Shown in pieces: positions 19,856 to 21,340 of a DNA stretch of 64,000 bases. The notes under the pieces were generated by a model. The model worked only from the letters and a program-made list of their open reading frames with translations. It did no database searches and was not told the DNA's origin. The first letter of the stretch is position 1, and every line of letters starts with the position of its first letter. The DNA lies in NCBI GenBank assembly GCA_021740625.1, contig JAIOZK010000001.1, positions 186,001 to 250,000 on the forward strand, read 5' to 3'. The position numbers and the translations under genes were made by a program. Source of the stretch: Bacteroidales bacterium. Its GTDB lineage: Bacteria; Bacteroidota; Bacteroidia; Bacteroidales; JAIOZK01.

Positions 19856-20068
19856 ATGATCTGGAAATTATTACTGATATCAGCTGTTTTGATTGGGATT
19901 GCCATCGCGGGCATCGCCATTAAAATGTTTTTACAAAAGGATGGGGAGTTCAAAAAACAATGTGGAAGTACTGATCCTGCTACAGGACAGAAAATAGGCT
20001 GCACATGCGGTGGTGGCGAAGGAAGCTGCGAGAACAAAAGTTTAAAAGCGAATGCATCATCCCATTAG
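19856..20068 (+). CDS. Small Cys-rich membrane protein
   Basis: 70 residues. One hydrophobic helix (LLLISAVLIGIAIAGIAIKMF) is followed by a short tail with four cysteines, KKQCGST, IGCTCGGG and GSCENK. The tail spacing could hold a metal or an iron-sulfur cluster, or form disulfides. It has a good ribosome site (AAGGAG at 19846-19851), rare in this window, and a -7 box TAAATTTG at 19825-19832, which together support a real gene. From memory, similar one-helix Cys-tailed proteins occur across Bacteroidota, often without a name. Its partner is unknown. Confidence 0.65.
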   Translation: MIWKLLLISAVLIGIAIAGIAIKMFLQKDGEFKKQCGSTDPATGQKIGCTCGGGEGSCENKSLKANASSH

Positions 20069-20083
20069 CAGATCCTTTTTAAC

Positions 20084-21208
20084 TTATCTAACAAAATCCA
20101 TGTAGTTTTCTTTATTTACCACTTTATACTGAGCATCAGGGTATGTCTTGCTAAAACTGGCCGGAGGTTTGATTTTTTTACTTGAGTGCCATTTGAATTC
20201 ATAAGCAAAGATTTTTCCATCATATTCTTCGAGATAATCAACTTCCTGCTGCCTGGTAGTCCGCCAAAAAAACACACTTCTGTATAATTTATGGTACTCC
20301 AAATATTTTAAACGCTCCGAGACCAAAAGATTCTCCCATAAGGCACCTACATCATTTCTGAGCTCTAATGAATTAAATTGATTTATTATGGCATTTCTTA
20401 TTCCATTGTCAATGAAGAAAATTTTCTTTGATCTTTTTAATTCATTCCTTAGATTTCTTGCATAGGAAGGTAAACGGAAAATAATATAAGCTTCTTCGAG
20501 TAAATATATATAACGCTCAATGGTTGACACATCAGCCTGAAGCATATTTGAAAGTTCCCGGTAAGATACCTGATTGCCTATCTGAAAGGCCAATGCTTTT
20601 ACCAGCTTTTCAAGCAAATCGGGTTTGCGCAAATCTTTTAAGCGAAATACATCTTTGAACAAATAATCAGAAATAAGTTCCTGCAATACTGCTCTTTCAT
20701 CCCCGGCCCTTGTGACCACTTCCGGATAGGAGCCAAATATCAAACGGGTGCTTAATGATCTCTCCAACTCCATTCTGTTTGTATATTTCTCCAGTTCTTC
20801 AAATGATATGGGAAATAATTTATACGTCCACTTTCTACCTGTAAGTGATTCTTTAATCTTATCTGTTAATTCAAAAGAACTTGAACCTGTTGCTATCAAC
20901 TGAATTCCTTCACAATTATCATGAATAATCTTCAGAACCAAACCGGAGTTTTCAAGTCGTTGGGCCTCATCAACTATCACAATGTTACCTGCAGTGAACA
21001 ACTCAACAGCACGGGTTGAATTTAAATTATTTAATATTTCTCTGTCATCAGGATTATCAGCATTTATCCATATGGTTTTATTCTTGCTGCTTTTCTGAAT
21101 CTGTCTCATTATAGTAGTTTTGCCAACCTGCCTTGCACCCAGCAACAAGATTGTTTTCCCTGAGAAAAGCCGGGAATTAATACTTTCTAATAATGTTCGT
21201 TTTATCAT
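20084..21208 (-). CDS. AAA-family ATPase with DUF4143 domain
   Basis: 374 residues. The N-terminal AAA_14 ATPase has Walker A (LLGARQVGKTTIMRQ, about 20-35) and Walker B (NIVIVDEAQRL, about 75-85), followed by a sensor segment IQLIATGSSSFEL. A winged-helix-like part (QIGNQVSYRELSNMLQADVS) leads into the C-terminal DUF4143, with ARNLRNELKRSKKIFFIDNG and a nuclease-like end, VDYLEEYDGKIFAYEFKW. The last part resembles the core of restriction-like folds (D...E-x-K). The cellular role of the family is not established. The promoter lies inside an 18-bp inverted repeat, suggesting tight or self-regulation. Codon use is more AT-rich than its neighbours, compatible with transfer. Confidence 0.88.
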   Translation of the reverse strand: MIKRTLLESINSRLFSGKTILLLGARQVGKTTIMRQIQKSSKNKTIWINADNPDDREILNNLNSTRAVELFTAGNIVIVDEAQRLENSGLVLKIIHDNCEGIQLIATGSSSFELTDKIKESLTGRKWTYKLFPISFEELEKYTNRMELERSLSTRLIFGSYPEVVTRAGDERAVLQELISDYLFKDVFRLKDLRKPDLLEKLVKALAFQIGNQVSYRELSNMLQADVSTIERYIYLLEEAYIIFRLPSYARNLRNELKRSKKIFFIDNGIRNAIINQFNSLELRNDVGALWENLLVSERLKYLEYHKLYRSVFFWRTTRQQEVDYLEEYDGKIFAYEFKWHSSKKIKPPASFSKTYPDAQYKVVNKENYMDFVR

Positions 21209-21213
21209 TTTAT

Positions 21214-21259
21214 ATGGTTATAACCGACAAATATACGCATTTTTGTCGGTTATAACCAT
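21214..21259 (-). promoter_or_regulatory. Dyad operator and -7 box of the AAA/DUF4143 ATPase gene
   Basis: A perfect 18-bp inverted repeat (arms 21214-21231 and 21242-21259, 10-bp spacer). Each arm contains the self-palindrome GGTTATAACC, at 21216-21225 and 21249-21258, 33 bp apart. On the minus strand an exact -7 box, TATATTTG (21235-21228), runs into the arm nearer the gene, so a bound protein would block the promoter. Confidence 0.7.
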
Positions 21260-21332
21260 TTTTTTTCCACTGTTATGCGATTCTCTACTATACATCCTGT
21301 ACCTTTAGTGTTAAATAATTAACAGATTTTGC

Positions 21333-21340
21333 TACTTTTG
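21333..21340 (+). promoter_or_regulatory. -7 box of the M3 peptidase gene
   Basis: TACTTTTG is an exact TAnnTTTG match, 36 bases before ATG 21376. Confidence 0.5.

Follow-up and report, generated by a model that had tools for sequence, protein, structure and literature searches.

The WYL-domain repressor BrxR is said to be a winged-helix dimer that represses a defence operon by occupying a palindrome of ca. 20 bp in its promoter, and AbiE and other toxin-antitoxin systems reportedly regulate themselves through several inverted repeats in their promoters. Separate winged-helix repressors of defence operons are likewise known from CapW, which binds as a dimer to a ca. 20-bp palindrome over the promoter of such an operon and represses it (PMC9122588). 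PMC12988326 ranks PDC-S01, in which an AAA ATPase is joined to a PD-(D/E)XK-like domain, fourth in frequency among prokaryotic defence systems and treats it as a candidate without validated function. As far as the literature on DUF4143, PDC-S01 and COG1373 was searched, no operator, autoregulation or DNA specificity was found.

The locus treated here lies in a 64-kb stretch of Bacteroidales DNA (“the window”) and encodes a member of the PDC-S01 family. The gene and its protein features are as follows.

20084–21208, minus strand: AAA_14/DUF4143 ATPase gene, 374 aa, PADLOC PDC-S01 (PDLC04789), from Pfam and PADLOC matches
21116–21142, minus strand: Walker A motif LGARQVGKT, residues 23–31
20465–20623, minus strand: predicted winged helix-turn-helix, residues 196–248, with the recognition helix at 227–239 (AlphaFold2 model)
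20525–20533, minus strand: putative specificity triplet D V S, residues 226–228, at the start of the recognition helix
20192–20350, minus strand: C-terminal domain, residues 287–339, with E292/D324/E337/K339 (conservation in 94 relatives)

Both Pfam domains passed their cut-offs (DUF4143, 137.4 bits against 28.1; AAA_14, 101.2 bits against 27). The match to PDLC04789 ran from end to end (E 1.9e-155; residues 1–373 of 374 in the protein and 1–373 of 375 in the profile), and a role in phage defence has candidate status. A sequence-only reading of this DNA had held that the family has no established function, a statement that PADLOC's listing of the family as the defence candidate PDC-S01 qualifies. 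The AlphaFold2 model, built from 49 sequences, had a mean pLDDT of 90.9 and comprised an AAA+ domain, a winged helix and a C-terminal domain; residues 226–228 mapped to the start of the predicted recognition helix. The C-terminal domain is a candidate for the PD-(D/E)XK nuclease fold class (PMC12988326). Its residues E292, D324, E337 and K339 were conserved in 98–99% of the 94 relatives and fit the acidic/lysine pattern of a PD-(D/E)XK active site. The gene is flanked by an rRNA methyltransferase, a 70-aa open reading frame and an M3 peptidase. The 70-residue frame (19856–20068) has a hydrophobic N-terminal stretch, a Cys-rich tail and no Pfam match; its region is similar at the DNA level to the same place in a genome of the same genus, after which synteny stops. 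That genome retains the rRNA methyltransferase and the small frame after it but differs from there on, and therefore offers no clean empty site. No antitoxin or toxin partner gene adjoined the ATPase in the window, as a toxin-antitoxin system would require.

A dyad was found 6 bp upstream of the ATPase start codon (21208). Its 18-bp arms, at 21214–21231 (ATGGTTATAACCGACAAA) and 21242–21259 (TTTGTCGGTTATAACCAT), are perfectly complementary, as the sequence-only reading had claimed, with 10 bp intervening; the window contained no further perfect inverted repeat whose arms reach 18 and whose loop is at most 40. Dinucleotide-shuffled versions of the window contained no perfect inverted repeats at arm lengths of 14 or 16 (5 shuffles per length). 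The self-palindrome GGTTATAACC does occur in both arms, at 21216 and 21248; the spacing, previously given as 33 bp, measured 32 bp. The enclosed promoter element proved exact, too: TATATTTG, at 21228–21235 on the minus strand, matches TAnnTTTG, the Bacteroidetes -7 consensus (PMC7366714). A single TAnnTTTG is not rare (5 in 3 kb vs. 3.5 expected). The neighbouring M3 peptidase gene, which runs in the opposite direction, has its own TACTTTTG at 21333–21340, ca. 70 bp outside the dyad.

Relatives were assembled from genome contigs (46 loci) and from searches over relatives, phylum and class, to which further stretches were added; the 94 of 126 genes that passed 250 bits to the window protein were defined as the subfamily and served as the training set. 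When seven close relatives were aligned with the window, two 22-bp imperfect palindromes (e.g. TTTGGCGAATATAATCGACAAA) were seen 32 bp apart around TATATTTG. On this alignment, the window's pair is best read as the same arrangement with weakened outer halves, and the 18-bp repeat as the remnant made up of the facing halves and the cores. The single dyad with GGTTATAACC cores that had been put forward as the unit was accordingly replaced by paired 22-bp palindromes 32 bp apart, measured between centres, of which only the facing halves are strong in the window. The operator features are listed here.

21210–21231, minus strand: predicted operator unit 2, 22 bp, gene-proximal, TTTGTCGGTTATAACCATATAA (5' to 3'), aligned with seven close relatives
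21242–21263, minus strand: predicted operator unit 1, 22 bp, upstream, AAAAATGGTTATAACCGACAAA, over the -33 region, aligned with seven close relatives
21214–21259, no strand: 18-bp inverted repeat, i.e. the GGTTATAACC cores plus the facing (inner) half-sites of both units
21228–21235, minus strand: -7 box TATATTTG (TAnnTTTG; consensus from PMC7366714), overlapping the left arm of unit 2

The centres of units 1 and 2 are 32 bp apart, and unit 2 is expected to span the transcription start. The alignment thus supports a probable operator extent of 21210–21263, wider than the dyad. With the 22-bp score, 1 of 200 shuffles was as good as the window pair. An early 18-bp pair score was dropped because it failed to pick up this pair, against which 10 of 100 shuffles scored as well.

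Terminators and the ends of mobile elements carry inverted repeats as well, and the family is patchy and multicopy. The repeat might on these grounds be an RNA hairpin (an attenuator or RNA regulator) or one of the terminal repeats of a mobile element. Folding of the 5' leader that starts at 21228 is no better than that of its shuffles (z -0.44), however, and unit 1 lies outside the expected transcript because it is upstream of the -7 box; there is hardly any chance that this account holds.

The new genes set aside for prediction came from 105 loci, which yielded 100 genes, of which 94 remained after four near-duplicates and two distant genes were dropped. The upstream region of L160 was too short, and a Walker A search found no gene in L196, L250, L251 and L252. 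In a scan of 28–37 bp, the best-fit spacing was 32 bp in 75 of 94 training genes and 78 of 94 hold-out genes, and the units outscored all 200 shuffles in 58 and 61, respectively. Control promoters of genes lying 500 bp or more from every family start (n = 153, same loci) showed a flat spacing distribution, with 17 at 32 bp; just two beat all 200 shuffles, and one of these (L056) is a truncated family gene. This set replaced a first one of 106 promoters (12 at 32 bp); since divergent neighbours have the operator in common, contamination of that first set is probable. No significant pair (at 10/200) was detected in 18 of 94 training and 13 of 94 hold-out genes. Some relatives have three or four palindromes instead of two. 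Seven gut Bacteroidales loci (L032, L033, L039, L041 and L043–L045) seemingly carry one unit, of the GGATTCAATTCC type; a complete second unit is replaced by apparent half-sites 32 bp upstream (a distance counted by eye and for L044 alone).

The letters of the units vary by lineage (e.g. TTGTGAATTGATTCACAA, TTTAGATTATAATCTAAA and CCGTCAGTTAACTGACGG), with a different palindrome in most lineages. Conservation of the dyad upstream of orthologues, which the sequence-only reading had proposed to look for, therefore fails as an exact sequence (present in 1 of 295 genomes, the window's own) and holds as an architecture: searching other genomes for the same dyad is unsuccessful because the sequence diverges while the arrangement persists. 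Among 32 distant paralogues outside the subfamily, eight beat all 200 shuffles and ten prefer 33 bp. Five distant paralogues in the window's own genome (L004, L006, L011, L012 and L013; 26–31% identical) each have their own palindrome pair before the gene, at 29–33 bp, that beats all 200 shuffles. L012 carries TGTCGAATATATTCGACA, which is near the units of the window family despite the distant protein.

The units were positioned relative to the promoter. TAnnTTTG was present in the promoters of 96 of 127 operators, compared to 15.5% in shuffles, and was phase-locked to the units; the centre of the last unit fell mostly 6–7 bp after or 22–25 bp before the end of the -7 box (127 promoters). So phased, the units would overlie either the start site or the -33 region. 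The upstream placement, found in many genes, and the genes in which units lie only upstream of the -7 box make it conceivable that the ATPase binds the units yet activates its own promoter. Other genes, the window's included, have a unit over the expected start (+6/+7 from the end of the box) that should block polymerase, and activation is judged improbable.

A second possibility is that the palindromes serve mainly as a place where the ATPase-nuclease lands or is loaded (like a centromere or a replication-initiator site, or else a cleavage site), with promoter overlap as a by-product. The tandem arrangement with its fixed period is reminiscent of initiator or partition sites, and the AAA+ and winged-helix part resembles DNA-loading ATPases (the Foldseek matches include RuvB, Cdc6/Orc1 and MuB). 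The phase-locking to the -7 box runs counter to this idea, as does the lack of further sites in the genome. An 18-mer genome search for a regulon gave nothing and missed even the window's own asymmetric units; a 16-mer half-site was therefore used. Its exact form occurred twice in the genome, both times in the window operator, and near matches were not in excess (55 vs. 66 for the reversed control), so that no second site emerged. The loading-site account is considered quite improbable.

The reading preferred here is that the ATPase is its own DNA-binding regulator and that the repeats form the operator of its gene, which we regard as very likely. The evidence for it includes co-variation between protein and DNA. 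Operator calling used the DNA only and required a spacing of 31–33 and no more than 2 of 200 shuffles scoring as well; it succeeded in 61 of 94 training genes, and 59 remained after proteins at least 90% identical were removed. Some palindrome arrays allow two centres that differ by 16 bp; for these the family profile, and not the protein, set the register. Out of 3465 pairs of a protein column and a half-site position, ranked by corrected mutual information, the top three were 228/-6, 227/-7 and 226/-5. In the training operators, E at residue 228 accompanied C at base -6, K or H accompanied G, and N or I accompanied T; at residue 226, D went with G and S with C at base -5; at residue 227, K or H went with G at base -7. 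The rule (for residue 228: E to C, K to G, N to T at -6) was fixed before the hold-out stretches were obtained.

Operators were called in 68 of 94 hold-out genes; genes with no operator called, and hence outside the test of the code, numbered 33 of 94 in training and 26 of 94 in the hold-out. Residue 228 predicted base -6 in 55 of the 57 genes that the rule covers, and the mean frequency of the predicted base was 0.912, vs. a mean of 0.359 and a maximum of 0.557 in 5000 permutations. The rule was specific to -6 (at most 22/57 at other positions) and independent of the choice of register (34/36 unswitched, 21/21 switched). Residue 226 predicted base -5 in 55 of 63 (0.833 vs. 0.470 permuted, maximum 0.635). 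For residue 227 the prediction held in 33 of 37, a test without permutation power because a single class was represented. In 67 of the 94 hold-out genes a two-base core could be predicted; counted whether or not an operator was called, 85% of these had the predicted inverted pair, compared to 30% when permuted. Both gene sets belong to one phylum and overlap partly in their genomes, and redundancy was reduced only among proteins with 90% identity or more. Relatedness was addressed with a tree of 127 genes from which the helix-turn-helix columns were left out: of 18 path-disjoint pairs differing in the class of residue 228, base -6 changed as predicted in 17 and in the opposite direction in none, with one tie. 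For residue 226, seven pairs were as predicted, one was opposite and one was tied. For a winged helix, we judge this residue-to-base code to be unusually clean.

The window gene itself is atypical, with a residue 228 that the rule does not include and degenerate outer half-sites. Its triplet is D226 V227 S228. All four half-sites have G at -5, which fits D226. S228 falls outside the rule; at -6 the inner half-sites carry C and the outer ones T. L231, a hold-out gene with the same triplet, has A or C there. The window operator may be in evolutionary transition. The three-residue rule was not plainly transferable to the distant paralogues (helix-turn-helix rows compared by eye). One genome (G349; L092, L118, L132, L133 and L139) holds seven subfamily copies, including two adjacent pairs, with seven different recognition triplets (DKE, DYK, NKI, DTK, NHH, DKN and SKN). 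Paralogue pairs within a genome shared a triplet in 1 of 70 cases vs. 3.6 expected, a trend only (508 of 5000 shuffles were as low).

The subfamily was also found in 41 of 239 genomes of a second phylum, that of L051 (Candidatus Roizmanbacteria). Upstream of 36 genes from this phylum, direct repeats peaked at 33 bp (9.64 vs. 7.57 shuffled), with a smaller rise at 32. By eye, TTGACA-like elements were seen among the units near the gene, which again argues against a loading site. Among 34 non-redundant genes, GGA-N5..7-TCC was present in 13 of 15 with D226 and K228 vs. 0 of 17 without K228; the comparison excluded a further two genes that have K228 but lack both D226 and the motif. The motif occurred in 7% of shuffled upstream regions of the K genes. 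This test was less strict than the hold-out because it was framed after the sequences had been viewed; on its terms, the K-to-G part of the rule appears to have held in the second phylum.

The position of the operator alone would be compatible with a separate regulator encoded elsewhere, for which no supporting evidence was found. Residue-level co-variation with the ATPase's own recognition helix, the held-out prediction and the second phylum all tell against it, and it is rated very improbable. The palindromes look self-read because three recognition-helix residues largely predict operator bases in other bacteria. Because the operator co-varies with the recognition helix, and the hold-out and the second phylum agree, the ATPase very probably reads its own operator. 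The same three lines lend support to the earlier proposals of an operator over the promoter, of binding on one helical face and of self-regulation, which are taken here as probable.

In a structural comparison, the best matches of the model were the archaeal STAND-like ATPases 2qen (Z 17.0; 3.2 Å, 252 residues) and 2fna (Z 16.8; 3.1 Å, 251 residues), followed by plant NLRs, CED-4, Apaf-1 and Avs5; the matches mostly span residues 1–310. A sequence search for a full-length relative of known structure found none, the best match (29 bits) covering the AAA part only. The likeness to STAND-type ATPases (SSO1545, PABY2304; NLR, CED-4/Apaf-1, Avs) is the order of NTPase then winged helix, a shared fold alone. 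Unlike them, the window ATPase is without a repeat sensor domain and has a C-terminal DUF4143 instead, and its winged helix appears to be under base-specific selection. In CapW and BrxR the regulator is a separate WYL-domain protein, whereas here the ATPase, the predicted DNA reader and the putative nuclease are in one polypeptide, with two or more palindromes at a fixed 32-bp period. With multi-operator toxin-antitoxin systems the locus shares self-regulation through repeated promoter palindromes. The two marks of an autoregulated winged-helix repressor, an operator over its own promoter and base-specific reading by its own helix, were found computationally, the latter as a prediction from co-variation. 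An AAA_14/DUF4143 gene of Thermus thermophilus, TT_P0211, is among the genes changed by the presence of a plasmid (value 6.6) and lies near a CRISPR array, according to PMC4406477. Plasmid presence is thus a possible inducing condition for such a gene.

These ATPases very probably bind their own promoters and, judged by position, repress them; private negative autoregulation by the ATPase is the simplest reading, in which binding, repression and oligomer contacts are inferred. Two palindromes (three or four in some relatives), 32 bp or about three helical turns apart, would cover both the -33 region and the transcription start. One ATPase dimer would bind each palindrome through its winged-helix domain, with residue 228 contacting base -6 of each half-site, residue 227 base -7 and residue 226 base -5. 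Adjacent dimers would share a face of the DNA and obstruct RNA polymerase. Relief of repression may be tied to the ATPase or nuclease activity of the protein. A bolder and rather unlikely extension is a one-gene, NLR-like immune sentinel, in which an oligomer on its own tandem operator would keep both gene and nuclease off. Competing DNA ends, a nucleotide change or a phage protein could then serve as the infection signal that releases the ATPase, and derepression and nuclease activation would therefore be one event.

As far as the literature was searched, no ATPase-nuclease has been described that would read a tandem operator of its own by a code that can be deciphered. An operator predictable from three residues gives a direct experimental handle on a very common defence candidate. 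If each copy does read its own palindrome through a three-residue code, the family would constitute a large natural set of insulated repressor/operator pairs, with targets readable from the protein sequence. Private self-regulation of each copy may explain why the family survives in many copies.
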